Of a stretch of 64,000 nucleotides of DNA, positions 1,143 to 61,838 are shown in pieces. The notes beneath the pieces are model-generated. The model worked only from the letters and a program-made list of their open reading frames with translations, had not been told where the DNA came from and did not search any database. The first letter of the stretch is position 1. The number at the start of each line of letters is the position of its first letter. A program made the translations under genes and the position numbers. This stretch comes from Zygnema cylindricum (lineage: Eukaryota > Streptophyta > Zygnematophyceae > Zygnematales > Zygnemataceae): NCBI GenBank assembly GCA_037447655.1, contig JBBHKE010002185.1, forward strand, positions 62,001 to 126,000. Direction: 5' to 3'.

Positions 1143-1832
1143 CTAGGTGAAATTCTGTGGTCTCCATTGACCCACAGAATGAGCAGCCTATGTAAAGCCT
1201 CTAGGATAATATTTGCCCCTTCTACTTTCCCGTTGAATACGCGCCGCCCAGGCACACAAATATTCTGACCAACTTCACCCTTGTGAGGACAAGACTCCCT
1301 TGAGTCAAACGCAAAAAGAATCACTGAATTTGCTCACCCGAGTAGTAAGTTATGGTTGGTCAAAGATGACCTTTATAGTTACAAGCTCTCTTAGAGAGAG
1401 AGGTACCTAAATATTACTAAGTCTCGGTCTGCCTACTCATGACTACCTACTACTAAACCCTAGTCCAATAGGAACACTATATAGTACAAGAAGGTACAAT
1501 GGGCGATGTACTTATTGTACGACCATTGTACGACAAGGTCTAGAAGGTGACATCTGTCAAATCGAAAGCCATGGTTCCTCCTCCCATCTTCTCCGGTATC
1601 AAATAATGTGGCGCCACGTGGCACCGCGTGACGCTATCTCCGTATGCCGCCAAAAGCTCACTTCGCGTGGCGGCTATAATACCGGCCGTCCGATCAAAAC
1701 ATATTTTACACGGTTCAGATTCGCGTACATGCAGAAATTGCTCCTTTTGGTTAGTCTGCTGTTAATTAGCTGTTGCGTTAATGTTTATGTATTTATAAAA
1801 CCCGTCACGTGTATCGTTTCGATAACGCCTTA

Positions 1833-1883
1833 TTGGTTAAGGCTTACCTCTACAAACATAACCACAGACCATGGTTCAAATCT
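1833..1883 (+). promoter_or_regulatory. Second tRNA-like A-box/B-box pair in the solo LTR
   Basis: TTGGTTAAGGC (1833-1843) fits the tRNA D-arm A box and GGTTCAAATCT (1873-1883) fits the T-arm B box, about 30 bp apart as in tRNA genes. It lies antisense to the LTR and upstream of the tRNA-like segment found in all other LTRs. A related A-box-side sequence occurs near 22950 in the 22758-24898 LTR. No clean cloverleaf can be drawn. Confidence 0.45.
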
Positions 1884-1984
1884 TGTTTATAGCAGTTTAT
1901 GGTTATTTGTTAGTTTGTTAGAACTCTCTACTTCTACGCTTATAAATACCTATTGTACCCCACATATGTCATCGTTAACTCTAA

Positions 1985-2056
1985 GCTATCTGTTAAAGCT
2001 AACGGCTATTAAGGATGACAGGTACTAGGATCAAATCCTGATTCTGGCAGTTCACT
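1985..2056 (+). promoter_or_regulatory. Antisense tRNA-like pol III-type unit (solo LTR)
   Basis: The B-box variant GGATCAAATCC is at 2028-2038 within a short T-arm-like hairpin (AGGA/TCCT). A T-run (TTTT) follows near 2053-2056, as expected for RNA polymerase III termination. The A-box side near 1985-2005 is degenerate. The position inside the LTR matches that in the other LTRs of the window. Confidence 0.45.
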
Positions 2057-2240
2057 TTTGCTACAAACTACGAATCAGCCTATCCCCTTTAGACAGCCAT
2101 GGCACTAGCTCTCTCTCTGGTCTTCAGTGACTGCAACAAGTATGGGGACCGGAGAGATTTGAGCAAGAAGTAGGCTGCCTTTGTTGACTTACTCTATTTA
2201 TTTTTCCAATACAGACCTAGAAAATACATAAATTTCAACA

Positions 2241-2530: not shown

Positions 2531-3528
2531 TGCAATCCTGTGTCCTCCATTGGACCACAGAATACAAGAAGCCTCTAGATAGTATTTAACTAACCCACTT
2601 CAAGCCACAACCACTGCTGTCCAAAAAGGCAATCTCACAGTTTGAATGCACCCCAATGCAACATGGACTCCCTTGAGTCTGTAGCAAAAAGAATCACTAA
2701 AAACGGCCGACCAGCCGATAAGTTATGAGTTAGTAAAAATACTTAATTGTACAAACTCTCAGAGGGAGATGTGACTACCTACCAAAGTTTTCTAAGTCCT
2801 GATTCCCTCTAACAACTTCTATCTACCGAAGTACAGACCAATAACATTACTGTACCGTACCAAAAAGTACTACTGTCGGTGTACCTTTTGTACGGCTTCT
2901 GTACAAGAAGGCTATTAAGCTGAGGCGTGTCCGCGTTTCACTCTTTTGTACGTTCCTCGGAATTCTCATGACCGAATATCATCTCTCCATTCGGCTCTAG
3001 GAAATGCCACGTCACAAAACGCCAAAGTGACCTTTCCGAGATCTCGGCGAAGACGTAAGCCGTTGGATAAGAACGAACATTAAATATCGTCCGTCAAAAC
3101 AAATGTCATATTCATTTGTTTCGTGCAGAATTCTGTCCGCATTGAATGTTACCTGATCTATGATGTTACGTTTACATTTCCTTTAATTGGTTTAGGGGAC
3201 ATAACATTCTTTAAATATCAATCATACCCTATATACTCTGGCGAACATCTACGACAGAGTGGTTTGAGCGGACGGCTACGCCACACTCTACCGGTCGGGG
3301 GTTCGAGTCCTGCTAGACTCAACCTTTTTGTAGAGAGTGACGTAAGTTCACTCTCTAACTATGTCTATGGAGCTGAGGCAACCATGGCAACATCACTCTC
3401 TCTCTCTTTCAGTGACTACAACAAGTATGGGGGTAAGAGAGAAGGGATGAAGACAAGCTGCCTACATGTTTCTTTTTCCGCTAATATATTAAGACCTAGA
3501 AAAAATCCAAATGATATTTATTTTAACG
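2531..3528 (-). mobile_element. Copia LTR1 (3' LTR of minus-strand element A)
   Basis: Starts TGCAATCCTG and ends TTTTAACG (CA mutated to CG), directly before the polypurine tract of the internal region. Its left half (2531-3055) differs at many positions from LTR2 and LTR3, while its right half (3056-3528) is identical to LTR2. That makes it one edge of a recent tandem duplication. The 215-residue open frame at 3123-3770 runs across LTR and antisense RNase H sequence and is not a gene. Confidence 0.9.
3253..3329 (+). promoter_or_regulatory. Antisense tRNA-like pol III-type unit (LTR1)
   Basis: The sequence shows an A-box-like GAGTGGTTTGAGCGG (3257-3271), a perfect B box GGTTCGAGTCC (3300-3310) and TTTTT at 3325-3329. 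TTTGAG before the B box can pair with CTCAA after it, giving an acceptor-like stem. It is antisense to the retrotransposon. The layout is that of a type-2 RNA polymerase III promoter with terminator; transcription is inferred, not shown. Confidence 0.6.
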
Positions 3529-7866: not shown

Positions 7867-8862
7867 TGCAATTCTGTGTCCTCCATTGGATCACACAATA
7901 CACGAAGCTCTAGATAGTATTTAACTAACCCACTTCATGCCACAACCACTGTTGTCCAAAAAGGCAAACTGATAGTTTGAATCCACCCACTGCAGCCTGG
8001 ACTCCCCTGAGTTGGTAGCAAAAAGAATCATTGAAAACGGCCAACGAGCCGATAAGTTATGAGGCAGTAAAAATGCCAACTCCTACAAACTCTCAAAAGG
8101 AGAGGTGACTACCTACCAAAATTTTCTAAGTCTTGATTCCCTCTTACAACTTTTATCTACAGAAATACAGACCAATCAAATTACTGTACTGTACCAAAAA
8201 GTACTACTGTCGGTCTACCTTCTGTACGGAATATGTACAACAAGGTTGTTAAGCGGATGCGTGTCCGCTTTTCACTCGTCCGTATGTTCTTAGGAATTCT
8301 CATGACCGAATGTCATCTCTCCACGTGGCTCTAGGTCATGCAACGTCACAAAACGCCAAAGTGACCTTTTCGGGATCTCGACTAAGATGTAAGCCGTTGG
8401 ATAAGAACGAACATTAAATATCGTCCGTCAAAACAAATGTCATATTCATTTGTTTCGTGCAGAATTCTGTCCGCATTGAATGTTACCTGATCTATGATGT
8501 TACGTTTACATTTCCTTTAATTGGTTTAGGGGACATAACATTCTTTAAATATCAATCATACCCTATATACTCTGGCGAACATCTACGACAGAGTGGTTTG
8601 AGCGGACGGCTACGCCACACTCTACCGGTCGGGGGTTCGAGTCCTGCTAGACTCAACCTTTTTGTAGAGAGTGACGTAAGTTCACTCTCTAACTATGTCT
8701 ATGGAGCTGAGGCAACCATGGCAACATCACTCTCTCTCTCTTTCAGTGACTACAACAAGTATGGGGGTAAGAGAGAAGGGATGAAGACAAGCTGCCTACA
8801 TGTTTCTTTTTCCGCTAATATATTAAGACCTAGAAAAAATCCAAATGATATTTATTTTAACG
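7867..8862 (-). mobile_element. Copia LTR2, chimeric middle LTR of the tandem
   Basis: It starts TGCAATTCTG next to the priming site of copy A and ends TTTTAACG next to the polypurine tract of copy B, so it serves both internal regions. Its left part (7867-8120) equals LTR3, and its right part from 8390 equals LTR1. The simplest reading is a crossover near 8390 between a 5' and a 3' LTR. Confidence 0.9.
8587..8663 (+). promoter_or_regulatory. Antisense tRNA-like pol III-type unit (LTR2)
   Basis: Identical to the unit in LTR1: A-box-like stretch, B box GGTTCGAGTCC at 8634-8644 and TTTTT at 8659-8663. Confidence 0.6.
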
Positions 8863-14500: not shown

Positions 14501-15469
14501 TGCAATTCTGTGTCCTCCATTGGACTACATAATACAAGAAGACTCTAGATAGCTATTAGCTAACCCACTTCCAATGGCAACCACTGCTACCTTAGCAAAC
14601 AATCTGACAATCTGACTGCACCCCTTTGCAGCCTGGACTCCCTTGAGTCCGTAGGAAAAAGAATCTCTGAAAACGCCTAACCATGCGATAAGTTATGAGG
14701 CAGTAAAAATGCCAATTTGTACAAACTCTCAAAGGGAGAGGTGACTACCTAACAAAATTTTCTAAGTCCTCATTCCCTCTAATAACTTCTATCTACTGAA
14801 GTACAGACCAATCAAATTACTCTACCGTACCAAAAAGTACTATTGTCGGTGTACCTTTTGTACGCATATGTACGACAAGGCTTTTAAGCGGACGCGTGTC
14901 CACTTTTCACTCGTCCTTACGTTCCTCGGAATTTCCCACGACCGAATGTTATCTCTCCACGTTGCTCTAGGTCATGCCACGTCACAAAACGCCAAAGTGA
15001 CCTTTCCAAGATCTCGGCGAAGTTGTATGCCGTTGGATAAAAACCGGCGTTAAATATCGTTCGTCGAAACAAATGTCAGATTCATTTTTTTCCTGCGGGA
15101 TCCAGTCCGCACTAGTTTTAACCTATTCTATGATGTTACATTTACATTGCCGTTAATCAGATTAGGGGACGTAACATACTTTAAATATGAATCACACCCT
15201 ATATAATCTAGCGAACATCTATGACAAACAGGTTATAGCGGACGGCTACGCCACGCTCTACTAGTCGGGGTTCGAGTCCTACTGGACTCAACCTTTTTGT
15301 AGAGAGTGACGTAAGGTCACTCTCTAACCCTGTCTATGGAGCTGAGGCACCCATGGCTCCATCACTCTCTCTCTCTTTCAGTGACTACAACAAGTATGGG
15401 GGTAAGAGAGTAGAGATGAAGAAAAGCTACATGCATGTTTTTTTTTTTCGCTAATATATTAAGACCTAG
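14501..15469 (-). mobile_element. Copia LTR, right end missing
   Basis: Begins TGCAATTCTGTGTCC and follows LTR1/LTR2 throughout, including the GTAC blocks, CGCCAAAGTGACC and the CT-rich segment near 15365. It stops at AAGACCTAGA (15469), about 30 bp before the expected end. No internal region is attached; it is a truncated solo LTR or an element end. Confidence 0.85.
15225..15298 (+). promoter_or_regulatory. Antisense tRNA-like pol III-type unit
   Basis: AGGTTATAGCGG forms a weak A box, GGTTCGAGTCC (15269-15279) is a perfect B box, and TTTTT follows at 15294-15298. The segment between them, GGCTACGCC, is also kept in LTR1, LTR2 and the LTR at 42374-43393. Confidence 0.58.
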
Positions 15470-16162: not shown

Positions 16163-17341
16163 TGAAACTCTGAGACCTCCATTGGTCCTCATAGTTGGCA
16201 ACTCACAAGAAGCTTATCTAGATAGTGCCGACTTTTAAGTTTATTTAAAACCCAAATGATTGAGCCCTTGACAATCAGAACCCGCTTCAACCGTGTGAAA
16301 TAACACTTTCTAAGTGCCTAGTTCCACCACAGAATGCAAAGTAAGAATATGACTTTTGGAAAACATTCCCCACAATGAATTTCCTTTAGAAATTCAGCCA
16401 CCCTGGCAGGCAAACAATATGACCGACTACATTTTTGTGTAGCCTGGACTCCCTGAGTCTAGAGCAAAAAAAGAATCACTCAAAATGGTCCACTGAGTGA
16501 GTTTTCATTAAATTGAAAAGTTTGCCTATTTATACAGATGCTCTCCGGGAGAAAGGCGACTACCTACCAAAATTATTCTAAGTCCTAAAACCCCTCTCTA
16601 TGCTTCCTAGTATCAAGGTACGGTCCAATCATAAGACTGTACCGTACAAAAAAGTACAGGTGCCGTTGTACTTTCTATACGGTCAATGTACGCCATCGTC
16701 ATAATGTAACATTTGTCACATTCAGAATTATTATCTCGCATTCCGAAAATCCCGCCATCCTCTCGGATCCTGCCACGTGTCATCCGGGGTGGCGGTGCCC
16801 GTAAACGCCAAATTGTCCACTCAAAAATCCCGGCTCGCACCATGGCCGTTCGATGAAGACCAACATTAAACATTGGCTGTCTAAAAAAAATATCCTTTCG
16901 TTAATTCCGTGCGGTCCGGAATTCGTGCGATCGAATGTGTTTCTGTGTACAGGCGGTCCCGTAACCAGTTAAATTAAAGATAGTGCGCGTTCAGATTTAT
17001 ATAACTATCGTACCCCAAGTACTATAGCATTGATCGTAGTCTACACCATAAAGCTACCGGCTGTCGAATTCTTTACGGACGATAGGTCCCAGGATCAAAT
17101 CTTGGGTCCGTCAAGATCCTTTTAGTAAACCTACCAAATACTACAACCTGTCTCTCTCTTTGGGCAGCATGGGAAACCATGGCTCTGTCTTCCTCTCCAA
17201 CCTTCATTGATTGCGACAAGCCTATATTGATTGCTACAAGTGTGGGGGTTTGGAGAGTGGAGCGAGAGGCAGGCTGCTTTTTGCGGACTTCCTCATATTG
17301 ATTTCCTTTATTCATACCTAGAAAATACGTACATTTCAACA
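16163..17341 (-). mobile_element. N1 LTR (3' LTR)
   Basis: Starts TGAAACTCTGAG and ends TTTCAACA before CTCCCCTTATTTTC. It contains CCACGTGTCATC (G-box/ABRE-like) near 16780. Its antisense tRNA-like unit is at about 17040-17123, with B-box variant GGATCAAATC, hairpin TTACGGAC/TCCGTCAA and TTTT at 17120-17123. Confidence 0.85.
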
Positions 17342-18543: not shown

Positions 18544-19708
18544 ATGAAACTCTAAGACCTCCATTGGTCCTCAGAGTAGGCAACTCACAAGAAGCTTATT
18601 TAGATAGTGCCGACATTAAGTTTGTTTTAAACCCAAATGATTGACCCCTTGACAACCATAACCCCATAATAGCTTCAACCCTGTGAGTTAACACTTTATG
18701 TGTGCTCAATTCCACCATAGAATGCAAAGATAGAATATGACTTTTGGATAACATTCCCCACATTGAATTTCCCTTAGAAATGCAGCCAGCTTGGCACGCA
18801 AACACTCTAACCGACTACACCCCTCTGTAGCGTGGACTCCACTGAGTCTGCAGCAAAAAGAATCACTGAAAATGGTCTATTGAGTGAGTTTTAATTAAAA
18901 GGCAAAGTTTTCCTATTTATAGAGATGCTCTTTGGGAGAGCGGTGACTACCTACCAAATTTATTCTAAGTCCTAAAACCCCTCTCTATGCTTCCTAGTAT
19001 TGAGGTACGGTCCAATCGTAAGACTGTACCGTTCAAAAAAGTCCAATTACCGTCGTACTTTTTGTACAGTCAATGTACGACATTGTCATACTATGACAAT
19101 TGTCACATCCGGAATTATTATCTTGCGTTCCGGAAATCTCGCGATCCTCAAGGATGTTGCCACGTGTCATCCAGAGTGTCGATGCTCGAAAACGCCAAAT
19201 TGTCCATTCTGGAATCCCGGCTCGCACAACAGCCGTTCGATGAAGACCGACATTTAACAGTGGCCGTCTAAATAAAACATCATTTCGTTAAATTCCGTGC
19301 GGTCCGAAATTTGTGCGATCTAATGCGTTTCTATGTACAGGTCTTCTTGTAACCAATTAAATGAAAGATACTGCACGTTCAAATTCATATAACTATCGTA
19401 CCCCATGTACTTTAGCACTGATCGTAGTCTACAGGATGAAGCTACCGGCTATCAGATTCTTGACGGATGACAGGTCCGCGGATAAAATCCTGGGGCGTCA
19501 AAGATCCTTTTGGTAAACCTACCAAATACTACAGCCTGTCTCTCTCTTTGGGCAGCATGGGCAGCCATGGCTTTGTCTTCCTCTCCAACCTTTAGTGACA
19601 GCGAAATGTGTGGGGGATTGGAGAGTGGAGCGAGAGGCAGGTTGCCTTTGCGGAATTCCTCATATTGATTTCCTTTATTCAGACCTAAAAAATACATACA
19701 TCTCAACA
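18544..19708 (-). mobile_element. N1 LTR (5' LTR)
   Basis: Starts TGAAACTCTAAG and ends TCTCAACA. It contains CCACGTGTCATC near 19160. The tRNA-like unit near 19440-19515 is degenerate: the B-box position reads GGATAAAATCC, and TTTT follows. It has clear substitutions against the other N1 LTR, so insertion is not very recent. Confidence 0.85.
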
Positions 19709-22757: not shown

Positions 22758-23261
22758 TGTGTTGAAAAGAAGTAATTAATATTCACTTATTAATTTAAAC
22801 TCTAGAGTGAAAAGAGAGAGAGAGAAAGAGAGAGCCACATTGGCTGCCGCCATAGAAAGAAAGAAACAGGCAGACAGGCAGACAGATTGATAGATTGGCA
22901 AAATATTGCCATGAAAATAATTTGAGCATGGGTCTATATAGTATTGCATAAACGTACGCCTTACCAATCAAGGCATTAACGAAATGATAGAGGCATTCAA
23001 TTTGCTATGTATTTAAAGTGTAACGCATAACGTCACTTTCATTAAAATAGACCAAAATTGACAAAACGACATCTAAAGTCAAACGGCGCTTGCAAACACG
23101 AATCTAACAGTGTAAAATTCATGATTGGCTGGACTTCGTCGCCCCCGCCAAACCCGAATGAATCTTTGACGGGTTTCTAACATAGCGGGGCGCTGTGTCA
23201 AGTGGCGCCACATCTTTGGACACCGGAAAGGATGGGAGGAGGAACAATGGTGTTGTTCTTT

Positions 23262-26636: not shown

Positions 26637-27287
26637 AAGTCTTCATTGTGGACAGCTTCCAAGAAGGCTCTAGGATAAACGTGACCCCTTTGTGTTTCAG
26701 CAAGAACAACTGCCACCTTGGCAAACAAAAACTCTGACCAAACGCCAAAGTGACCACTCCGGCATTTCGGCAATGATGTGTGCCGTTGGATTTGCAATGA
26801 GACGCAATTTTAGATGTAATAAATATTGACGCCACATTTGTTTCGTTGTCGAAACAAAATTCGTGGTATCTGTTTTGAAATAGTGTCGTACTTCGTACTT
26901 TCATAAAACTGTGTCTATGCACGCCATATACAGTTTTAGTTAAATGGATTTGTTCCTCCCTAAATATATTTATATCTATCAGATCTATAGCATTTAGCAT
27001 TTGTCTTAGTCTAATAGGATAAAGTTGACCTTTATCGGCCAACTTGACAAACCGCAGGTACCAGATCAAATCCTGAGTCCGTCATGTATATTTTTAGTTA
27101 CCAACTAAAAACAACTGCTGTTGAACTAAGGCAGCCATGGATCAACCATCCTCTCTTTCCTTCTGTGACTACAACAAGTATGGAGGCTTGAGAGAGGAGG
27201 TGAAGGCAATCTGTCTGTCCTTTTGTTTTTCTTTTATGCTAACGTATTAAACCTAGAAAAAACTCTAGAAATCTATTAATTGTAACA
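26617..27287 (-). mobile_element. Short copia LTR shared by M0 and M1
   Basis: Bounded by a priming site on its left (M0) and a polypurine tract on its right (M1), so it acted as 5' LTR of one body and 3' LTR of the other. At 671 bp it lacks about 350 bp of the usual middle: sequence jumps from ACTCTGACC to AAACGCCAAAGTG. The antisense tRNA-like unit remains (about 27008-27095), with GATCAAATCC at 27064-27073 and TTTTT at 27091-27095. Confidence 0.85.
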
Positions 27288-30652: not shown

Positions 30653-31511
30653 TTTTATCTAAAATATATGTGCCGGCCACAGGATTTGATCCCTGTACCT
30701 ATCGGCCGGCAAACGGTAGATAGCCGGTAGCCTTAGCCATTAAGTCTAGAAACTAATGTTACGTAGTATATAGTTTGATATTTATTTAAAGATGTACGCG
30801 TAGGATTAATCATTTAACTGTAATTTATTACGGGATACATAGATCCGGTAATGTGTAAAGTACGGATTACGGTACGAACAAGAAATCAATTCCGCGCATT
30901 TATTTCGTAGGTGAAACGAATACCGCGCATGTATTTATTACGGCTACGATTAAATCCGAATTTAATCGGACGGCCGGAATTAGCGCCGAGATCGCGGAAG
31001 AAGATTTCGGCGGTTTGCGGCCATCGCCACATCAGATGACACGTGGCGAATTTATATTGGATCGTGGAATCTCCGGAGATTATGGCACCGAATCCGGATA
31101 TGACATGTGTCGACATTTAGGCCATGTCGTACAATGTCCGTACATAAAGTACACCGACAGCTGTACTTTTGCGTACAAAATTGTATTCTGATTGGTTCCG
31201 TACATCAGTAGATAGAGTCTGTGAGAGAGATAGGACTTAGAAAAATTAGGAGATAGGACCCTCTCTCCTAGAGAGCTTCTGTACAAAAGGTCAACTTTGA
31301 CCCTCCATAACTTACTGCTCAGAGGAGCAAATTCAGAGATTCTTTTTGCTATCGACTCAAGGGAGTCTTGCCATCACAAGGGTGCAGGTGGTTAGAGTTT
31401 TTGTCTGCCAGGGAGGGAGTTGTTTTCGCTGAAACACAAAAGGGTCAGATTATCCTAGAGGCTTCTTGGAAGCTGTCCACTCTGAAGACTTATGGAGGTC
31501 TCAAAGTTTCA
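30653..31511 (+). mobile_element. Plus-oriented copia LTR lacking its first ~190 bp
   Basis: Starts inside the LTR just upstream of the tRNA-like unit and ends GTTTCA after TTATGGAGGTCTCAAAG. It contains GATGACACGTGGCG (G-box, 31036-31049), the GTAC blocks near 31128-31165 and the GACTCAAGGGAGTC hairpin near 31354. The next bases (AGAGATGCC) are not a priming site. Confidence 0.82.
30671..30760 (-). promoter_or_regulatory. Antisense tRNA-like unit with perfect acceptor-like stem
   Basis: TGCCGGCC (30671-30678) pairs perfectly with GGCCGGCA (30704-30711) around a T-arm-like hairpin containing the B-box variant GGATCAAATCC (minus strand, 30682-30692). The A-box side, TTAATGGCTAAGGC on the minus strand, lies at 30739-30752. 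Confidence 0.6.
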
Positions 31512-32111: not shown

Positions 32112-33146
32112 TGATTAAATTAATAGATTTCTAGAGTATTTTCTAGGTTTAATATGTTAGTATAAAAGAAAAAGAAAAGGACGGATAGCCTGCCTTCACC
32201 TCCTCTTTCTAGCCCCGGTACTTGTTGCACTCACTGAAGGATAGAGACGGTGGATGATTCATGGCTACCTTAGTTCAACAAACAGTTATTTTTAGTAGAT
32301 TACTAAAAATATACCTTACGGACCCGGGATTTGATCCCGGTACCTGCGATTCGTCAAGTTGGCCAATAGAGGTCAGCTTTATTCTATTAGAATAGGACCT
32401 ATGCTAAATGCTATAGTATGTGATAGATATATATATATTTAGGGAGGTACAAATCCATTTAACTAAAACTGTATACGGCACGCATAGATATAGTTTTATG
32501 AAAGTACGAAGTACGACACTATTTCAAAACGGATACCACGCATTTTGTTTTGACAGCGAAACAAATGTCGCGCAAGAATTTATTACGGCTAAGATTGCGT
32601 CTCGGTGCAAATCCAACGGCGCACATCATCGCCAAAATCGCGGAGTGGTCTCTTTGGCGTTTTGTGACGTGGCATGACCTGGAGCCAAGTGGAGAGATGA
32701 CATTTGGTCGTGAGAATTCCAAGGAATGTACGGACGAGTGAAAAGCTGACACGCGTCCGCTTAATAGCCTTCTTGTACATAGGCCGTACAAAAGGTACAC
32801 CGACACTAGTACTTTTTGGTACGGTACAGTAATCCGATTGGTCCGTACTTTAGTAGATAGAAGTTATTAGAGGGAATGAGGACTTAGAATATTTTTGTAG
32901 GTAGTCACCTCTCCCTTTTAGAATGTACGAATTGGCATTTTTACTACCTCATAACTTATCGCCTGGTTGGGCATTTTCAGAGACTCTTTTTCCTAAGGAC
33001 TCAAGGGAGTCCAGGTGACACAGCGGTGCAATCAGATTGTCTGCTTGTCTGCTTGGGTAGTAGTGGTTGTCATTGAAAGTGGGTTAGTTAAATACTATCT
33101 AGAGGCTTCTTGTATTTTGTGGTCCAATGGAGGACACAAAATTGCA
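32112..33146 (+). mobile_element. Element P 5' LTR
   Basis: Starts TGATTAAATT and ends AAAATTGCA. The antisense tRNA-like unit at 32314-32385 includes a perfect T-arm: CCGGG (32324-32328), a 7-nt loop and CCCGG (32336-32340), with A-runs (T on the minus strand) near 32305-32309. The bases after it (GGTTACGCGCC, 33147 on) are a mutated priming site. Confidence 0.88.
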
Positions 33147-37482: not shown

Positions 37483-38513
37483 TGTTGAAATTAAAAGATT
37501 TCTAGAGTATTTTCTAGGTTTAAATATGCTAGTATAAAACAAAAAAAAGGACAGAGAGCCTGCCTCCACCTCCTCTCTCTAGCCCCCATACTTGTTGTAG
37601 TCACTAAAAGACAGAAAGGGTGGTTGATCCATGGTTGCCTTAGTTCAACAGACAATTATTTTTAGTAGGTTACTAAAAATATACTTGACGTACCCGGGAT
37701 TTGATCCAGGTACCTTTGGTCCGTCAAGTTTGCCGATAGCGGTTAGCTTTATCCTATTAGACTAGGACCAGTGCTAAATGCTATATTATGTGATAGATAT
37801 ATATATTTAGGGAGGAACAAATCTATTTAACTAAAACTGTATACGGCACGCAAAGATACAGTTTTATAAAAGTACGAAGTACGATTCTAATTCAAAACGG
37901 ATACCACGTATTTTTCAACAACGAAACAAATGTCGCGAAAGTATTCTTTACGGCTAAGATTGCGTCTCGTTGCAAATCCAATGGCGAACATCATCGCCGA
38001 AATCCCGGAGTGGTCACTCTAGCGTTTTGTGACGTGGCATGACCTAGAGCCTAGTGGAGAGATGGCATTCGATCATGAGAATTTCGAGGAATGTACAGAC
38101 GAGTGAAAAGCGGACACGCGTCCGTTTGATAACCTTGTCGTACATAGGCCGTACAAAAGGTACACCGGCAGTAGTATTTTTTGGTATGGTACAATAATCT
38201 GATTGGTCCGTACTTCAATAGATAGAAGTTAATAGAGGGAATCAGGACTTAGAAAATTTTGGTAAGTAGTCACCTCTCCCTTTGAGAGTTTGTACAAATT
38301 GGCATTTTTATTGCCTCATAACTTGTTGCCTCATTGGGCGTTTTCAGAGATTCTTTTTCCTACGGAGTGAGGGGATTCGAAGCTGCACACGGGTGAAATC
38401 AAGTTGTTTGCTTCTCTGCTTAGGTAGCAGTGGTTGTCATTGAAAGTGGGTTAGTTAAATACTATCTAGAAGCTTTTTTTATTTTGTGGTCTAATGGAGG
38501 ACACAAAATTGCA
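37483..38513 (+). mobile_element. Element P 3' LTR
   Basis: Starts TGTTGAAATTAAAAG and ends AAAATTGCA. The antisense tRNA-like unit has ACTTGACG (37683-37690) pairing perfectly with CGTCAAGT (37722-37729) around GGGATTTGATCC. An A-run at 37674-37678 (T on the minus strand) lies at the terminator position. Confidence 0.88.
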
Positions 38514-42378: not shown

Positions 42379-43393
42379 TTTTGTGTCCTCTATTGGATTA
42401 CAGAATTCAGGAAGCCTTTAGATAGTTGTTTAACTTACCCACTTTCAATGGCAACCACTGCTGCCCTAGCAAACAAGATGACAATTTGATTGCACCTTAG
42501 TGCAGCCTTGACTCCCCTGAGTTCGTAGAAAAATGAATCTCTGAAATCGCCCAACCATGCGATTTATTATAGGGTGGCAAAGATGCAAATATATACAAAC
42601 TCTCAAAGAGGGAGAAGACCATCTACCAGATTCTCTACCAGATTCTTCTAAGTCCTAGCTCCCTCTCACAACCCCTATCTACTGACTGTACGAACCAATC
42701 AGAAAACTATACAATACAAGAAATTACTACTAGTGATGTACTTTTTGTACGGCCTTTGTACGACAAGGCCATTAAGCGGACGCATGTCCACTTTTCACTC
42801 GTCCATACGTTCCTTTGAATTCCCGCGACCAAATGTTACCTCTCGAAATGGGGCCAAGTCACCCCACGTCACAAAATGCTAAAGTGACCATTCCGCGATC
42901 TAGGGGATGATGTGCGCCGTTGGATAGAATTTAGTATTTGATCTCAACTGTCGAAACAAATGTCTGATTCATTTACTTCGTGGGAAATCATATCCGTACA
43001 GTATTTAACTCGTTCTACGTATCTATGTTTGTAATTTTGTTAATCGGAATAGCTACCGTAAAACTCTTTAAATATTTATCAAACCCTATATACTTTAGCA
43101 AACTTCTACGACAGACTGGTTAGAGCAAACGGCTACGCCTTGCTCTATGAGTTGGAGGTTCGAGTTTTGCCGGACTCAACCTTTTGACAAGAGTGACTTA
43201 GGTCATTGTTGTACTCTACAGGTGTAGTTGAGGCAGCCATGGCTCCACTACTCTCTCTCTCTCTTTCACTGACTACAACAAGTATGGGGGATGGAGAGAG
43301 AGAGGTGGAGGCAGACTGCTTTAGCTCTCTTTTCTGTTTTTCTATTTAGACCTAGAAAATACTTATATCAAATCTTTTTCGTTATTTTCAACA
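42374..43393 (-). mobile_element. Copia M2 5' LTR
   Basis: Starts TGCAATTTTG and ends TTTCAACA, then continues directly into repeat R (CCTTTATATT). Since R copy I has the same CCTTTATATT junction preceded by other sequence, M2 probably inserted into an R copy. The antisense tRNA-like unit is at about 43108-43185 (ACTGGTTAGAGC A box; GGTTCGAGTTT; TTTT at 43182-43185), with TAGAGCAA/TTGCTCTA pairing. Confidence 0.88.
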
Positions 43394-44735: not shown

Positions 44736-45723
44736 GGTTATATGAAGGACTCCAATACACACTATTTTTGGTTGTGGGCCCTTCTCTTTTGTTTCCCAAC
44801 CATGCTCAAAAATATTGGATCAACTCCGCCCCAGTGAAGGCAAGACTCCCGTGAGTCGCCTATAAAAAAAATATAGCAATTTGCTCCTTTGAGCTGTAAG
44901 TTTTTGATGGTCAAAGATGACCTTTTATATAGATTCTCTATGAGAGAGAGGCGACAACATAAGAATTGTCTAAGTCCTAAACCCCTCTTTAAACTCCCTT
45001 CTCTTGAAATAAATCACCAATCTAATAACTAAGCAGTATAGAAAGGTACTGGTGCCAGAGTACTTTCTATAGGGCCACTGTACGGCATGGCCAAGAAATT
45101 GAAGCTTGTCTCAACAGGACTTGTTCTAATGCTCTCTTCAGATGCCGTGAATGAATGAAACATCGCCACGCGTCATCTTGTGTGGCTGTGACCGAAAACC
45201 GCCAAAGCGGTCATCTCGTGATGTCTGCTCGTATTTTGGTCGTCCTTTCCAAAACAACTTTTAATACTAGCCGTTGAAATAAATGTTTCAAACATTTGTT
45301 TTGTTTGGTACCTTGATTCGCACTATGTATACAATCGGATCTATGCACGAAAGTCCGTTTGCTTGGTTAATCAAATTCTCTATGAGTACCTCTTTAAATA
45401 GCTATCACACCCTATATCTTTAACATAGTTTCTAGACTATAGGACAAAGATAACGGCTACCGGCTACTCGGAGGTACAGTAGGTACCAAGATCAAATACT
45501 AGGTCCGTCCAACCTTTTTGGTAACTCTAATCTGGATTGCTCCCTGTCTCCTTTAGACAGCTTATGCAACCATGGCTCTAACTCCCCTTCTAGTCTTGAG
45601 TGACTTTGACAAGTATGGGGACTTGAAAGAGAAGTTAGAGGCACGCTGTCTTTGCTACTTTCCTAATTTTCTTTTTCACAACTTAGACATAAAAAATACC
45701 AACCATAAACCATTAATTTCACA
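44736..45723 (-). mobile_element. Copia M3 3' LTR (left end degenerate)
   Basis: Recognisable from about 44780 by the AAGACTCCCGTGAGTC block, GGTCAAAGATGACC and GTAC-type blocks, and ends ATTTCACA before CTCCCCTTATTTTC. CCACGCGTCATC replaces the usual CCACGTGTCATC. The antisense tRNA-like unit is at about 45430-45519, with ATCAAATAC and TTTTT at 45515-45519. Confidence 0.78.
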
Positions 45724-48556: not shown

Positions 48557-50498
48557 TGCAACTCTGACACTCTATTGGTTCCAGAGTATGCAACTCACTA
48601 AAAGCCTTTGGAAAGCCTCTGCCCCTTTGCCTTTGACCAAGCTTGGCTGTCGCTCTGACAGACTCGAGAAAAATTTGACCTCACCCCTCTGAAGTGATGA
48701 CTCCCCTTAGAGTGCTGCAAAAAGAATCTCCAAATTTGCTCCCTTGAGCAGTAAATTATGGATGGTCAAAGATGACCTTTTGTACAGAAGCTCTCTCAGA
48801 GAAAGGCGGCTACCTCAGATTTGCCTAAGTTTTAAACCCCTCCCTAAATCCTGTACTACTAGAGTACAGACTAATCAAATTATTGTATAGTACAGAAAGT
48901 TACTAGTGTCAAAGTACTTTCTGTACGGCCATTGTACGGCTTGTGTTGAAATGTCTCTCTTTCTTATTTGTATTTTCTAGGTCATTGAAATGGAACAAAA
49001 TAAAATGGTCTTACCTAGGCTCTAACCTCTCTCTCCCTGGTTTTCATACTTGTTGTAGTCATCGAAAACCGGAGTGAGAGAGAGAGATAGATTGATAGCT
49101 GCCTAAGCAGCCAGAGAGGGCAGAGGTCAATATGAGTAGACTGTACCAAAAAGATACGGACCAGCTAAGAACTGATCCTGGTCCCTATGGTTCGCCAGAA
49201 TAACCGGAGCCTTGTCTTATAGTTTAGGACCATAGCTGGGATATATAGGGTTTAATAGATATTTAAAAATATACATGCAGATCAAACTGATTAACTAGAT
49301 CTACAAAAAATCTTACATAGAAAGAGTGCGACTTTCGTATACACTCCGGATCGTACTAAACAAATTGATCGGACATTTATTTGAACGGCGGACGTTAGTA
49401 CATCAGTTGTCTTGGACCGCTGTCATTGAAGCCGACATAAAGGAATGGTTATTTTGGCGGTTTATAGACGATACATCATCGGATGACACGTGGCGCGGCA
49501 TCAATGGAAAGCCAAATCACCGGGAAGCATCAGGACAAGTTTGAGTGTGACAAAAGTCCTCACTATGGCTATGCCATACCTTAACCCTACAGAAGGTACC
49601 ACGAGACTTGTACCCTCTTTTACGGTATAGTCTTGTGATTGGTGCTTTATAGCAGTAGATAGGGATTTTAGCGAGGAGTTTTGGGACTTAGCAAATTGTA
49701 GGTAGCCGCCTCTCTCCCATAGTGGTTTTATACAAATAGGTATTTTTGCCGCTTCATAGCTAATCGCATGTTTGGGCGTTTTCATAGATTTCTTCTCCTG
49801 TGGACTCACAGGGTCCGAACTACACAAGGGTCTAATCATTAATATACTTTGCCTGCCAGGGTGGCAATTGTTTCTCAACAAAAAAGGCCATTGAAAATTC
49901 ACTAGAGACTTCAAAAACAAAGGGAAATTATGTGATCCAATGGGGAACACATAATTACATCATGGCCAGAACGTGGACGCCTGTCATATCCGAACTCGTT
50001 TTCATATTCTCCGGAGATGACGCAACCCAATGTGATCTTGCCGCGTGTCATCGGGTGTGTCTACACCATAAACAGCCAAAGCATCCATTCTGCGATGTCG
50101 GGGCTCACCATGGCTATCCGATTAGATCAACTTTTAATACAAGTTGTTGAAATAAATGTTCGCAACATTTATTTGGTGTGGTACTTTAATGTTCAACGGG
50201 TTCTATGTCCTATCGTTTGTTCCATCAATTAAATGAAATGTCTTACGTGTAAATGTTTAAATAGCTATCATACCCTATGTATCCTAGCACAGGTCCTAGT
50301 TTATAGGGCAAAGCTATTTGTTACCGGCTACTCTGACGGATAGTAGGTACCAAAATCAAATCTTGGTTCCAACAACCTTTTTGGTAAGGATGACTTGATC
50401 TGCTATGTCTCTTAAGAGAAGCATAAAAAGAGATGGCTCTAACTCCCTCTCTAGTCTTCAGTGATTGCGTCAAATATGGTGATATGAGAGAGAAGTTG
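48557..50498 (-). mobile_element. Minus copia LTR split by a nested solo LTR
   Basis: Left part 48557-48943 starts TGCAACTCTGACAC and carries GGTCAAAGATGACC and the GTACGGCCATTGTACGG block. Right part 49960-50498 continues with CATGGCCAGAACGTGG and GCGTGTCATCGGG, and has the antisense tRNA-like unit at about 50290-50382 (AATCAAATCT; TTTTT at 50378-50382). It could be the 5' LTR of M3 after deletion of M3 gag. The end is cut at the junction with the gypsy fragment. Confidence 0.75.
48944..49959 (+). mobile_element. Plus-oriented solo copia LTR nested in a minus LTR
   Basis: Starts TGTTGAAATG and ends ATAATTACA. It contains GATGACACGTGGCG (49481-49494) and GTAC-rich promoter blocks. The antisense tRNA-like segment (about 49155-49235) is degraded. 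Flanks GCTTG and TCATG may be a decayed target duplication. No internal region is present. Confidence 0.75.
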
Positions 50499-51662
50499 TC
50501 ATGCATGAGAGGCAAGCAAGCAAACAAGTATCACAACCAGCAAATTCATGCTCACAAACATATATACCAATGAAAATACACATGTAAAGACAAAAATATA
50601 TACACCATGAGAAGGAATAATGGTGAATATGACCCAAAGAGAGAAGGGGAAGAATACTCCCCTAGAGTATTCAATAATACTCCTAATAAAAGTGAAGTGG
50701 ACCCAATAATTCTCCCCTTAACCCCTTAGCATGAAGAGGAGCTGGTTAACACAGCTAAGGGCCTGGAACAGATATGCAGGCTGTGGTCAGCCCGGTTGAA
50801 AGATAATGGAGGAATAAGGCACTCCATGTGGAACCCTTGATCAACACCTGTACATGTATAAACCCTCTGCAACCTCAACATCACGATAGTATCGTTTTTT
50901 ACCTTATGGAGAATGTGTGGAGAGACCTTAGTGTCGAAGGTATCCAAGAGATGACGCGAGTTGGTGAGAAAGGCGGGCTCACTCAAACTATCTCACAATG
51001 GTGGGGTGTCTGGAAGGATAGTTTTTGGGAAAAGAGAGTCGCAATTGTCTTCCCTAAGGTCAATACTAGAAAATGAAGGGAGAGGGGAAGCAGAATGTGC
51101 CATAGTGGGGCGACAGCTTGCGAGCACAGACAAGGGGGAGAAATATTTTGCTTCCCGGAAAAAGTAGAGGGATGGTAGGAGAAGGTCTGATCATGCATAT
51201 CGACTCCCCCACCGATTCCAAAGATAACATCCTATCCCAATGAGCATTCGTAGTCGTTGCATTTGGTGACCAATGCTCGGACATAAACTTCCACGGACTA
51301 ACCCTCAGTTCCGTTTTGGAATCGAAAGGTGAGCAAGTCCTTCGTGATTCAAAGCACCGGCTCCGTGGTACCGGCTGAAGTGAGAAGCCGAGTAGCGGTG
51401 GCTTGAAGCTTGTCTGCGCTCATATCAAGCTTGAGCACACATCTAGATCCGAAGATCACGGGTTTGACTCCAGTGTCCATGAGAGGGAGAGAAGGAGCAA
51501 CATCGTTAACGAAGAAGGACTTTTGAGAGATGTTCAGGAAACTGATGTGAGGATCAAGGTCACGGCGCTCATCTGCGATAACCGGCTGAATAAATGAAAG
51601 ACTACGATTCAGCTGCAACGCCTTTAAAGCGACAGCTGCAGCGAACTCATCAACAAGGGGAG
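50499..51662 (-). pseudogene. Ty3/gypsy-like fragment: protease and PHD-like finger
   Basis: On the minus strand, 51618-51349 contains LMDTGVKPVIFGSRCVLKL: an aspartic-protease DTG motif followed by the pattern seen in retropepsin domains of plant gypsy-like polyproteins. Farther on, 50986-50726 contains GVDQGFHMECLIPPLSF with nearby remnants of Cys positions, which resembles a PHD finger (consensus with WH-x-x-C-L-x-P-P-L). RT is absent. The matching Gag lies at 56407-57569, beyond inserted element N2. Family recall, not a search, supports this, so the PHD call is tentative. Confidence 0.6.
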
Positions 51663-53026
51663 TGAAATTCTATGGGCTCCATTGCCACACAAAATTCGCA
51701 GATCCAAAAAAGCTAATCTTGATAGTGCCGACTCCAAGTTTATATAAACCGAAATGATTGACCCCTTGACAATCAAAACCCCATTACAGTTTCACCCCTG
51801 TGAAATAAGACTTTCTGTGTGCTCAGTTCCGCCACAGAATGCAAAGTTAGAATATGAGTTTTGGATAATATCCCCCACTTTGACTTTCCCTTAGAAATTT
51901 TGCCACCCTGGTAGGCAAACACTTTGACTATTTACACTCTTGTGTAGCCTAGACTCCCTTAAGTCCGCAACAAAAAGAATCACTGAAAATGGTCAAGTAA
52001 ATTGATAGTTATGGCTGGCAAAAGTTTGCCTTTTATACAACAAGCTCTCTGGGAGAGGCGACTACCTACCAAAAATATTCTAAGTCCTAAAACCTACTCA
52101 CAACCCCTCTAGACCAATCAAATAAACGTATATTATTTAATGTACATACAAAGTACGGTAGCCGCCGTACTTTATGAAATGAAGTATGCGGTACCACTCT
52201 CGGTCTGCCATGGGGCAGACTAGTCAACGCCATTCTGTCCCTTTCTTCTCCGACATCTTATAGAGTGGTGCCACGTGTCATTTGTTGACTGTTGAATTTA
52301 TTAGATTGCCGTTCCGTGTTGACCGTTGAAATTCTACATCAACACGGAACCTACTAAGGTACGCACAAATCATACGAGTGTACCGTACATGAAAGTACAA
52401 GTGCCGAAGTACTTTTTGTATGGTCCATGTACGACATCGACATGATGTGACATTTGTCACATACAGACCTGTCGTCTTGCTTTTCGGAGATCCCGTAATC
52501 CTCTAGGATGTTGCCACTTATCATTCGGAGTGGCGACGCTCGAAAACGCCACGTCGCCCACTCCGGAATCCCGGCTCGCACCACCACCGTCGATTCAAAT
52601 CCAAATTGCATTTGCGCCATCGAAACAAATGTCCGTACCATTTGTTTCGCAACTGCTTCTATGTTCTAGATGTCGTTAACCTAGTTAAATGAAAATCTCT
52701 ACGTATGACTGTATATGTATATTTATTAAACCCCATGATACATAACACAAATCATAGACTTAACGGATAGAGCTAACATCTACGGTTTGTTTGACGGACG
52801 GTAGGTACCTGGTTCAAATCCTATATCCGTCAAATGTTATTTTAGTAAAAACTTCCTTTGTCTACTCTTGTCTCTATAGAGAGCTTAGGCAGCCATAACT
52901 CTAGCTCCCTATCCAACCTTCAGTGACTACAACAAGTGTGGGGGCATGGAGAAGGGAGTCAGAGGCAGACTGCCTCTTCTCATTTTCTTTCCTAAATCAT
53001 ACCTAGAAAATACTCAAATATCAACA
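51663..53026 (-). mobile_element. N2 3' LTR with duplicated promoter module
   Basis: Longer than the other LTRs (1,364 bp) because the GTAC/G-box promoter module occurs twice: 52140-52280 with CCACGTGTCATT, and 52375-52570. Between them is a perfect 12-bp inverted repeat, GTTCCGTGTTGA (52311-52322) and TCAACACGGAAC (52339-52350). The antisense tRNA-like unit has a perfect B box GGTTCAAATCC (52811-52821), stem TTGACGGA (52791-52798)/TCCGTCAA (52826-52833) and TTTT at 52840-52843. Confidence 0.88.
52758..52843 (+). promoter_or_regulatory. Antisense tRNA-like pol III-type unit (N2 3' LTR)
   Basis: A-box-like AACGGATAGAGCTAAC, B box GGTTCAAATCC (52811-52821), an 8-bp acceptor-like stem around it and a TTTT terminator. 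The same unit recurs in the 5' LTR, with its B box at 56191-56201 and TTTT at 56220-56223. Confidence 0.62.
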
Positions 53027-55044: not shown

Positions 55045-56406
55045 TGAAATTCTATGGGCTCCATTGCCACACAGAATTCGCAGATCCAAAGAAGCTAATC
55101 TATATAGTGCCGACTCCAATTTTATATAAACCCAAATGATTGACCCCCTGACAATCAGAACCCTATTAAAGCTTCACCACTGTGAAATAAGACTTTCTGT
55201 GTGCTCAGTTCCGCCACTGAATGGAAAGTTAGAATATGAGTTTTTGATAATATCCCCCACTTTGACTTTCCTTTAGAAATTTTGCCACCCTCGCAGGCAA
55301 ACACTCTGACCGATTACTCCTTTGTGTAGCCTAGACTCCCTTGAGTCCGCAAAAAAAAGAATCACTGAAAATGGTCAAGTAAATTGATAGTTATGGCTGG
55401 CAAACGTTTGCCTTTTATACAACAAGCTCTCTAGGAGAGGCGACTACCTACAAAAAATATTCTAAGTCCTAAAACCTACTCACAACCCCTCTAGACCAAC
55501 GAAATAAACGTATATTTTTTGATGTACATACAAAGTACGGTAGCCACCGTACTTTATGAAAGGGAGTATGCGGTACCACTCTCGGTCTGCCACGCGGTAG
55601 ACTAGTCAACGCCATTCTGTCCCTTTCTTCTCCGGCATCTTATAGAGTGGTGCCACGTGTCATTTGTTGACTGTTGAATTTCTTTAGTTGCCGTTCCGTA
55701 TCAACCGTTGAAATTCTACATCAACACGGAACCTACTGAGGTACGCACAAATCATACGAGTGTACCGTACATGAAAGTACAAGTGCCAAAGTACTTTCTG
55801 TACGGTCCATGTACGACATCGACATGATGTGACATTTGTCACATACGGACCTGTCGTCTTGCTTTTCGGAGATCCCGTAATCCTCTAGGATGTTGCCACT
55901 TATCATTCGGAGTGGCGACGCTCGAAAACGCCACGTCGCCCACTCCGGAATCCCGGCTCGCACCATGACCGTCGATTCAAATCCAAATTGCATTTGCGCC
56001 GTCGAAAAAAATGTCCGTACCATTTGTTTCGCAACTGGTTCTATGTTCTAAATGTTGTTAATCTAGTTAAATAAAAATCTCTACGTATGACTGTATATAT
56101 ATTTATCAAACCCCATGATACATAACACTTATCATAGACTTAACGGATATAGCTAACATCTACGGTTTGTTTGACGGACGCTAGGTACCTGGTTCAAATC
56201 CTATATCCGTCAAATGATATTTTAGTAAAAACTTCCTTTGTCTACTCTTGTCTCTCTAGAGAGCTTAGGCAGCCATAGCTCTAGCAACCTATCCAGCCTT
56301 CAGTGACTACAACAAGTGTGGGGGCATGGAGAAGGGAGTCAGAGGCAGACTGCCTCTTCTCATTTTCTTTCCTAAATCAGACCTAGAAAATACACAAATA
56401 TCAATA
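55045..56406 (-). mobile_element. N2 5' LTR
   Basis: Starts TGAAATTCTATGGG and ends ATCAATA. It carries the same duplicated promoter module. The inverted repeat between the modules is imperfect here (GTTCCGTATCAA against TCAACACGGAAC), showing the substitutions accumulated since insertion. Confidence 0.88.
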
Positions 56407-57569: not shown

Positions 57570-58567
57570 TGTTGAAATCACTAGATTTAGGGGAGGTATT
57601 TTCTAGGTCTTAATTAAAAATAAAAAAGAAAAAGAAAGCACAGGCAGCCTGCCTCCACCTTCTCTCAGTAGCCCCCATACTTGTTGTAGTCACAGAAGAA
57701 GAAAGAGGGTCGTGGAGCCATGGCTGTCTTAGCTCCATAGGCAGGACTTAAGAGTGACCTAAGTCACTCTCAACTAAAAAGGTTGAGTCCGGCATGACTC
57801 GAACCTTCGACCGGTAGGGCGAGGCGTATCCGTCAACCCTTACCAGTCTGTCGTAGTAGTCTGTTAGGATACATGGGGTTTGATAGCTATTTAGACACTA
57901 GATAGGCGACTAATCCGATTAACAAAATTACAAATAAAATACATAGAAATTTGTTGAAAATTTAGTTCGCACGAAACAAATGTACCGGACATTTGTTTTT
58001 GAACGACTGTCCGTTAAAGCCGATTTTGATCAGACGGCCCGCACCATTGCCGAGATCCCGTAATGGCCGCCTTGGCGGTTTTCGATCCTGACATGACCTG
58101 GCGACACGTGGCACGATGTCATTGAGAAGAGGAAATCCCGGAGAGCATGAGGACAAGTCCGAAGGAGACAAGCGTCCACTCCATGGCCTTGTCGTACACA
58201 GGCCGTACAGAAAGTTCATCGGCCGTAGTACCTTTCTGTACTATAAAATCTTCTGATTGGTTCCGTTCCTCATTAGATAGGAGTTGTGAGAGGGTTTAGG
58301 ACTTAGTAGATTGAGGAGGTAGCCGCCTCTCTCGCAATAAGCTTGTATAAGTATTGGCATCTTGGCCACTCCATAACTAATCGCATGGTTGGGCGTTTTT
58401 AGTGATTCTTCTTGCTGTGGACTCGGGGGAGTCCAGATTGCACAGGGGTGCAATCAGATTATCTATTTGTCTGCTTGGGTGGCAATTTCTCTAGATGAAA
58501 GTGGGTTAGCTGAAAACTACCTAGAGGCTTCCTCAATTTTGGTCCAAATGGGTGACACGGAATTGCA
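57570..58567 (+). mobile_element. Element P2 5' LTR
   Basis: Starts TGTTGAAATCAC and ends GGAATTGCA. It was inserted into the gypsy-like gag (left flank CATAT). It contains CGACACGTGGC near 58100 and the GGACTCGGGGGAGTCC hairpin near 58420. The antisense tRNA-like unit is at 57776-57850: AAAAA at 57776-57780 (T on the minus strand), B box GGTTCGAGTC (minus strand, 57796-57805). Confidence 0.87.
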
Positions 58568-59810: not shown

Positions 59811-60844
59811 TGTAGAAATAAAAGGTTATTTTAGTATTTTCTAGGTTTTGTAAAATGCAGAAAAGAAGCAGAGGCAGTCTGCCTCTAACTCCTCTCTCTA
59901 ACTCCCACACTTGTGGCAGTCATTGAAAGTTGGAGAGGGAGATAGAGCCATGACCGCCAGTGCTATCTCTACGGGGGCAGATATTACGTTGGTAGATTTT
60001 ACCAAAATGAGATTGGCGGACCCAAGATTTGAACTTGGTACTTGCCGTCCGCCAAGGCAACCGGTAGTCGGTAGCCTTAACCATCTAGTCTAAACCAGAG
60101 ATACATGATATATGGTTTAATATTTATGTAGATGTTAACATTTAGACTATTTCATTCAACGGGATATTTCGACATAGATACAGTTTATAATGTACGGCGT
60201 ACGGTAGTTCCGAAACAAATATCGCGCATTTTGTTTTGAAGGCGAAACACATATTGCGCAAGTATTTATGACAGCCACGATTGAAATCCGGCATAATCGG
60301 ACGGCCACGAAGCATGCCGAGATCTCGGAATGGGTTTTCGGCGATTTGGGGACGACGTCCCATCAATCGCCACGTGGCGCAATTTCATTTGATTACGGCA
60401 TCTACAAGGATTCCAGGAAAGAATCCAAAAATGACATGTGTTTGCTTATTGGCCATGTCGTACAATGGCCGTACACTAAGTACACCAACACCTGTACCTT
60501 TATGTTCAATACACTATTACGATTGGTGCCGTTCCTCAGTAGATAGAGTTTTAGAGAGGGATATGACTTAGAAAATTTTTATAGATTAGACCCTCTCTCC
60601 CAGTGAGCTTCTGTACAAAAGGTCACCTTTGACCCTTCATAACTTACTGCTGAGGGGAGAAAATTCAGAGATTCTTTTTGCTATCGACTCAGGGGAGTCT
60701 TCCGTTCACAAGGGTGACGTTAGTCAGATTTTTTGTGTGCCACGGTGGCTGTTATTCTTGCTGAAACACAAAAAGGTCAGGGTTATCCTATAGGCTTCGT
60801 GTGAGTTGCCTACTCTGAGGTCCTATGGAGGTCTTAGAGTTGCA
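59811..60844 (+). mobile_element. Element Q 5' LTR
   Basis: Starts TGTAGAAATAAAAGG directly after P2 protease sequence (left flank AGTAG) and ends AGAGTTGCA. It contains the palindromic CGCCACGTGGCG (60369-60380), the GTACAATGGCCGTAC block (60458-60473) and the GACTCAGGGGAGTC hairpin near 60687. The 3' LTR is beyond the window. Confidence 0.88.
60004..60090 (-). promoter_or_regulatory. Best-preserved antisense tRNA-like unit (element Q LTR)
   Basis: TTGGCGGAC (60013-60021) pairs perfectly with GTCCGCCAA (60047-60055). Inside, CCAAG (60022-60026) pairs with CTTGG (60034-60038) around a 7-nt loop. Read on the minus strand this is a T-arm with loop TTCAAAT stacked on a 9-bp acceptor-like stem, with an 8-nt linker in place of the other arms. 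The A box GGTTAAGGC is at 60081-60073 and TTTT at 60007-60004. Pol III transcription is inferred from these motifs only. Confidence 0.68.
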
Positions 60845-61838
60845 GGTTATGGGCCCACCATCTAGGGTGCCAATATTCAATGGAGCTGGCTTCATATACT
60901 GGGAAAGTTTGATGACAGGAGCTCTATGTGAGAAACAGTTTTGGGGAAAAGTGAGTGGACGGGTGAGGCGTCCATCCAGTCTTGGGATACCTCCAGGGTT
61001 TACTGAAGACAGATTCACTAGAGATGCAGATGCATCTTTAACGGAGGAGATAAACGAAGAAGAGGTGGTGGACAAAGGAAAGGAGAAAAAGACGACCACA
61101 CCAATAGCAACTGGTTCGGCATTCATCTCACCTATTCCGAGGAACGAGGAGAATGATACTGATACTTGGGACTTCAACAATATGGCGGCAAAGCACTTCA
61201 TTCTCCGCCATCTTACTCAAGGACTTGCATGTCCTCATTTGCAGGTAGAAAGGGCATCCGATCTTTGGATGGCTCGTATAGAGATGTACCGAAGTGGTAC
61301 AATTCAGCAACAACAGTTGGCTGATCTGAAAGTTAAGGAATATGTATACAAAGGGGGAAAGATGTTGGATTTTTGCAATGAGCTTGCTACACTTTTCATG
61401 GAACTAGAGAGTGTTGGAAAAGTATTTAGTGAAATGGAAAAAGTCAACTGTTTACTGATGAAGTTGCATGATGAGTTCGAGAACATAGTCAACCGTGTGC
61501 AGGACTTGGCGGAATCAAGGTGGATTTGGAATTCAGTGGTAGGAATGATTCTCGTTCGGGAGATTACAATTGAGATCCGAAGGGGAGGAAAGAGTGGGCA
61601 AGCTTTGGCAGCTGAGACCGATTGGAGAAACAATAATTCCAAGAAACAGGCTGGAAATTATCGAGGGGAGGGGCAAAAAAATCAGAACGAGGAGTTCGGA
61701 CCAAGGACTCGTAAGGGTTTGAGCCATTTTTGTAATAAACTTGGGCACTATATGGCTGAATGTACTAAGTTAACCGAGCTGCAGTTAAAGGAGGGGAAGA
61801 CCGGTGGACCCACGAGAGGAAGAAAAAGGCCCTTGTAA
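60825..61838 (+). CDS. Copia Gag of element Q, 337 residues, start inside the LTR
   Basis: The longest open frame of the window that matches a real domain. It starts at ATG 60825 within the LTR end (MEVLELQ), reads through the priming site (VMGPPSRVPIFNG), and contains GFIYWESLMTGALCEKQFWG, NNMAAKHFILRHLTQGLACPHL, ERASDLWMARIEMYRSGTI, YKGGKMLDFCNELATLF, MKLHDEFENIVNRVQDL and EIRRGGKSGQALAAETDW (gag core, residues about 15-275). The zinc knuckle (about residues 302-316) reads SHFCNKLGHYMAEC, so the first Cys is Ser. A Lys/Arg-rich tail follows. The frame ends by frameshift at GRKRPL; relatives continue into the acidic linker and protease. An alternative start is the ATG at 60849 inside the priming site. 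Particle function is doubtful with the Cys loss. Confidence 0.82.
   Translation: MEVLELQVMGPPSRVPIFNGAGFIYWESLMTGALCEKQFWGKVSGRVRRPSSLGIPPGFTEDRFTRDADASLTEEINEEEVVDKGKEKKTTTPIATGSAFISPIPRNEENDTDTWDFNNMAAKHFILRHLTQGLACPHLQVERASDLWMARIEMYRSGTIQQQQLADLKVKEYVYKGGKMLDFCNELATLFMELESVGKVFSEMEKVNCLLMKLHDEFENIVNRVQDLAESRWIWNSVVGMILVREITIEIRRGGKSGQALAAETDWRNNNSKKQAGNYRGEGQKNQNEEFGPRTRKGLSHFCNKLGHYMAECTKLTELQLKEGKTGGPTRGRKRPL
60845..60859 (+). other. Primer-binding site of element Q
   Basis: GGTTATGGGCCCACC starts on the base after the LTR. This is the best-preserved copy: GGTTATGGGCCCA is complementary to the anticodon stem-loop of initiator tRNA-Met. The same bases code for Val-Met-Gly-Pro in the gag frame. 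Confidence 0.87.

Follow-up and report, generated by a model that had tools for sequence, protein, structure and literature searches.

The LTR at 59811..60844 (+ strand) carries in its U3 part, on the strand opposite to its element, a segment laid out like the internal promoter and terminator of a tRNA gene. An earlier note on this DNA had claimed such a segment for every LTR type in the window (the whole 64 kb stretch analysed here), and the question raised is whether these LTRs hold a small antisense Pol III gene or simply something that resembles one. Judged from the sequence, the arrangement is real, non-random and conserved and is made of known parts, and a function can be proposed for it. 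On balance we lean towards reading it as a degenerate but selected type-2 Pol III promoter with its terminator, placed antisense in the U3 of autonomous-type Ty1-copia LTRs, that would make an RNA of ~90-100 nt.

The Ty1-copia nest and its priming site

The window consists of nested and tandem Ty1-copia elements with copia gag, integrase-related and RVT_2 domains: of ten fragments, one has no match and nine match a gag of copia type, an integrase-related domain, RVT_2 or a zinc knuckle, the last falling below its cut-off in one fragment. The LTR-internal unit repeats with a period of ~5.3 kb; the LTRs alone are ~1 kb long, with gag, integrase and RT pieces between them. In protein searches, two protein fragments had no match at their cut-offs and a third had two distant matches (40-41% identity). 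Scans of viral and prokaryote contigs with the LTR motifs and the RT alignment found no relative, and one B-box-like pattern matched 37 viral contigs.

A profile built from the LTRs recovered 18 LTRs with a U3 part in the window, together with several fragments: 16 from the earlier note and two added by the profile search, at 18545-19710 (-) and 48950-49959 (+). Beyond these 18, the search found one remote LTR, running from 22815 (+; U3 profile E 0.0013, LTR profile E 8e-8), and one duplicated antisense unit; together with the added LTRs they serve as a small check on the earlier list. At 48557-50597, a - strand LTR is split by a + strand LTR inside it (about 48950-49959). A long inverted repeat at 14287-14507 (-), which matches MIR821 of Rfam below threshold (64.9 bits against a cut-off of 249), is perhaps a small inverted-repeat transposon.

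The LTR at 59811..60844 begins with TGTAG and ends with TTGCA at the limit of the LTR profile match (60844), followed by the PBS GGTTATGGGCCCACC at 60845..60859 (+). This PBS or a near variant adjoins the LTR-ending CA, standing after eight LTR ends with at most two mismatches and after a ninth with three (12 matches in the scan). It complements the anticodon arm of eukaryotic tRNA-iMet, and we read the window's elements as primed by half a tRNA-iMet. At 58568 and 58603 the PBS and its following bases stand twice, 35 bp apart. Half-tRNA priming is mentioned for Drosophila copia and Ty5 (PMC10886601) and, in plants, for Osser, Bryco and part of Gymco-II (PMC6317226).

Layout and conservation of the antisense unit

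The unit lies ~215-255 bp into the LTR, one of the LTRs being truncated, and reads, along the antisense strand, as a TATA-like block, an A-box-like stretch, a box B and a run of four or five T. In the LTR at 59811..60844 all of these parts stand on the - strand: the TATA-like block (CATAAATA antisense) at 60121..60128, picked out by the conservation profile and possibly belonging to the sense strand instead; the A-box-like TAGACTAGATGG, then GGTTAAGGC, at 60081..60092, read from the sequence and part of a signal that is weak overall; the box B AGTTCAAATCT at 60025..60035, matching at 10/11 positions; and TTTT (AAAA on the + strand) at 60004..60007, the candidate Pol III terminator. An acceptor plus T-arm minihelix spans 60014..60053 (-) as a weak Rfam tRNA match that skips the D and anticodon arms. 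Across 20 units the TATA-like block falls at -82 to -102 from the box B start, a match made without a control, which tells against the Pol III reading.

The numbering of a tRNA gene puts the start of box B at 52 and the end of the body at 73, so that the T-run, which starts at +25 to +29 from the box B start in all 18 U3-bearing LTRs, sits a few nucleotides past the expected tRNA end. This bears out the T-run that had been described near the tRNA-like end and argues for a Pol III unit; runs of four T may end Pol III transcription poorly, which counts against one.

All 16 box-B sites listed earlier are present, each antisense to its element and, as had been stated, on both genomic strands. On the + strand, the type I units are 2028 (1973..2061), 17091 (17037..17125), 19480 (19425..19513), 27063 (27008..27096), 45490 (45435..45523), 50353 (50298..50386), 52811 (52756..52844) and 56191 (56136..56224), and the type II units are 3300 (3245..3333), 8634 (8579..8667), 15269 (15214..15302) and 43158 (43102..43190). 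On the - strand, besides the 60027 unit described above, are the type I units 30682 (30659..30747, in an LTR truncated at its 5' side), 32329 (32304..32392), 37691 (37674..37762) and 49178 (49145..49233) and the type II unit 57796 (57772..57860). Units 19480 and 49178 belong to the two LTRs that the earlier list lacked; both carry the T-run (+28, +26) and a box B of 10/11, with cores changed to GGATAAAATCC at 19480 and GGATCAGTTCT at 49178. The LTR of unit 2028 (1148-2244) holds a duplicate unit at 1818..1890 (+) with good boxes, and no T-run lies near this second unit (at 1873). The remote LTR has an A-box-like TTGATTGGTAAGGC, a poor box B and TTTT at 22895..22985 (-).

The claim of a box B shared across the copies stands for 16/18 at 10/11 or better and falls short for 45490 and 50353, both at 9/11; these two copies, with the two changed cores, speak against a Pol III unit. 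The box-B changes between types (GGATCAAATCC, GGTTCAAATCC, GGTTCGAGTCC) are ones allowed in tRNAs, which speaks for it. The window is a dense nest of related elements, and the unit could instead be a landing pad that draws in sister elements, much as Pol III genes are targets of Ty1 and Ty3, whose integration depends on the target's box B being intact (PMC5911963). With units spaced ~3 kb apart, however, nearness to one says little, and the LTR-in-LTR insertion at 48950-49959 lies ~0.4 kb from the unit of the LTR that it interrupts; we find this reading very hard to credit.

Among divergent LTRs, box B is a local conservation peak: in a 20-column conservation profile of 13 LTRs (of 16, three sisters dropped) it reaches 0.76 against ~0.44-0.53 in its flanks. 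Separate alignments of the two types, from which three sisters, the remote LTR and the duplicate were omitted, gave values that favour a Pol III unit. Around the 11 type I units, no other 10-nt bin reaches the 0.83 of box B; in the 4 type II units, the box-B bin stands at 0.95 and the T-run bin at 1.00. A far type II bin, in the neighbouring hairpin, is also at 1.00. Two LTR blocks exceed box B in the profile, 59906-59925 at 0.80 and 60555-60574 at 0.87. The antisense unit is one of several constrained LTR parts, and the presence of other blocks as conserved or more so weighs against a Pol III unit. Within the window, then, the expectation that the boxes and T-run be better conserved than neighbouring LTR bases holds for box B and for the spacing of the T-run, and is weakened by these other blocks and by a box A that is marginal over controls.

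The motif counts point the same way on strand. The pair counted is a box B matching at 10/11 or better and a T4 that begins 22-32 nt further on. It is found antisense in 16/18 LTRs, sense in 0/18 and in 40 of 1080 dinucleotide-shuffled LTRs, which argues for a Pol III unit, although the LTR copies are homologous, so that such counts are non-independent trials and motifs shared by descent argue against it. In the whole window, on both strands, the pair occurs 22 times, 16 of them at units and 6 elsewhere. After removal of three near-identical sisters, 15 of the 18 LTRs were aligned, and the box-B column then has the top mean of 982 antisense columns (10.09/11, against a mean of 5.0 and sd of 0.9). 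The 10.09 comes from 11 LTRs, the four type II LTRs being gapped at that column, which is a weakness of this alignment; on the sense strand, the best of 982 columns scores 7.87. An antisense T4 lies within 32 nt in all counted LTRs for only 26 of 952 anchor columns, those at 60020-60045. The best box-B match of the LTR, alone or tied, is at the unit in 17/18 when the consensus is relaxed to allow A or T at 54, and in 15/18 under the textbook consensus.

Box A is weak by comparison with control windows, near background and marginally better than they are. On a seven-point score its mean is 5.6 vs 4.6, with 7/18 units at 6/7 or above (10.5% of control windows) and 17/18 at 5/7 or above (54%). 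The A box that had been claimed for every LTR type is thus weaker than described, GG.TA.RGC being present in 8/18 unit windows, while the raised mean stands. A box A near background counts against a Pol III unit, and together with the strong box B it would suit a TFIIIC-only site, in which box B serves as a boundary or chromatin element with no productive Pol III and the T-run is incidental. Such sites are known in yeast (PMC5911963), but a T-run kept at tRNA-gene distance in all 18 LTRs would not be expected of them, and we judge this explanation improbable.

tRNA identity, RNA fold and the neighbouring U3

As a tRNA gene the unit was rejected, with 0 hits from ARAGORN (bacterial code) and 0 at Rfam gathering cut-offs. 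The "tRNA-like segment" of the earlier note survives in part: the tRNA fold was found in no unit, and an acceptor/T-arm part matches in the 60027 unit. Two units were scanned alone with the tRNA model; 60027 (type I) reached 20.0 bits vs a cut-off of 29 (E 0.037), on the acceptor and T arm only, and 3300 (type II) gave no tRNA match. Many type I units contain GGATCAAATC, with an A at 54 as in initiator tRNA. Origin of the unit from tRNA-iMet was considered and not adopted: the A at 54 and the PBS fit, but the acceptor of type I units differs from that of tRNA-iMet.

The broken tRNA fold, the weak box A and the two changed cores are what would be seen in a relic, the functionless and inherited remains of a single capture of a tRNA or SINE piece by an ancestral LTR, and a SINE insertion was proposed by Kojima for similar LTRs (PMC10886601). 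An inert piece would not be expected to keep box B as a conservation peak while its flanks diverge, however, and we regard a relic as unlikely.

A further alternative is that the constraint falls on another feature which happens to resemble box B. This could be a Pol II factor site, or a hairpin that the genomic RNA (sense strand) forms at its 3' end. A type I minihelix is possible (11 rows; 74.8% of cells paired vs 20.6-54.2% when slid), and a neighbouring U3 hairpin exists. Yet the covariation of the minihelix is weak, being equalled in 20/500 shuffles (its pairing in 32/500), the motif is box-B-like on one strand only, and type II units retain just 1-3 of 7 acceptor pairs, with 3-4 of 5 in the T-stem, whereas type I units have 2-7 of 7 and 2-5 of 5; in the folded type II units 3300, 43158 and 57796, box B lies in a different hairpin. 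Conserved RNA structure is weakly supported as the main cause of the unit's constraint, and we consider another constraint of this kind an unlikely explanation. The DNA layout is the trait that the types share best, and we therefore infer that a promoter is favoured over an RNA fold.

The long U3 hairpin, at 59867-59965 and equivalent positions, has a conserved loop, CAYACTTGTNGYAGTCAHTGAA, with 16 matches in the window at no more than three mismatches (0.03 expected). On folding, the hairpin is more than 2 sd below mononucleotide shuffles in 7/15 copies; on the antisense strand it lies beyond the T-run, and Rfam miRNA-type matches at 43.2 and 49.0 kb, below their cut-offs, fall on it. A smaller inverted repeat lies between the hairpin and the unit (e.g. 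59988-60007), its sequence varying by family (TTTTTAGT..ACTAAAAA in some, AGAGAGTGA..TCACTCTCT in others). At least ~190 bp before the LTR 3' end, a TATAAAAGG-like block is a candidate sense Pol II start; some families have a good copy of it and others a degraded one, and a scan for it picked other places in several LTRs. The TTTAAATA block may thus serve either the unit or the sense strand.

A candidate Pol III unit and known systems

On the Pol III reading that we favour, TFIIIC would bind box B, with a weak box A, and TFIIIB may use the TATA-like block upstream; Pol III would then make an antisense U3 RNA of ~90-100 nt that ends at the T-run and whose start we infer from spacing. In the genomic RNA of an LTR element, U3 is found at the 3' end only, and therefore the antisense RNA would pair there. 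Alternatively, the Pol III complex itself could affect the element as a roadblock or insulator. Going further, we raise the tentative possibility of a lineage of autonomous copia elements that maintains a dedicated Pol III gene in U3, preserved over deep LTR divergence, whose ~95 nt antisense RNA would be a self-made regulator: a copy-number brake, a shield or an LTR insulator.

Pol III promoters have been described in the LTRs of short passenger elements and of some animal retroviruses. If the favoured reading is true, two polymerase systems would run in opposite directions within one LTR, and protein-coding copia elements would carry a built-in source of small antisense RNA.

The analogy with Cassandra made in the earlier note is fair, since Cassandra and Ajax are likewise described as having a Pol III promoter inside the LTR, but theirs is of the 5S (5S rRNA) type and the elements are non-coding; Helenus and the foamy-virus U3 cassettes are closer. 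In Helenus (TRIMp3; Kojima, 2024, PMC10886601), tRNA-type A and B boxes are conserved in the LTRs while the tRNA fold is lost, and fungal Helenus families share half-tRNA-iMet priming with their Copia partners. Helenus elements, however, are short (< ~1.3 kb), non-autonomous and without genes, whereas the window elements have gag and pol pieces; and the role proposed for the Helenus boxes is to promote transcription of the element itself (their sense orientation is deduced from this role), whereas the unit in the window is antisense in U3 (16/18 vs 0/18). In the same author's view, the autonomous partners have to rely on Pol II promoters, and long stretches of LTR in common with Helenus are improbable; he also mentions that "not a few" Repbase LTRs contain a tRNA-similar part (PMC10886601), so similar cases may exist without a detailed report.

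The foamy viruses (BFV, SFV, FFV) are coding retroelements that likewise have a Pol III unit in U3: bovine foamy virus is described as having a miRNA cassette there that is transcribed by Pol III, and A and B boxes are reported for feline foamy virus. The likeness is one of layout; these are vertebrate viruses whose cassettes make hairpin pri-miRNAs, and the descriptions at hand do not mention an antisense orientation. The folds of the window units vary. The antisense MIR of Polr3e is also a Pol III unit of tRNA origin that lies opposite to a Pol II transcript, and interference with that transcript is reported; it is a SINE in a host intron and not part of an LTR (PMC5358760). Other tRNA-derived SINEs share the internal A/B-box promoter, and differ in that the unit in the window is inside an LTR.

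Among the papers listed in literature searches, judged by title and abstract start and with most subscription papers outside the search, none describes autonomous LTR elements with a tRNA-type Pol III unit in antisense. The elements in the window would work like Helenus and the foamy-virus cassettes but are not members of Helenus; the parts are known, and what is new is their arrangement, a putative Pol III unit that is antisense, in U3 and in protein-coding copia elements.
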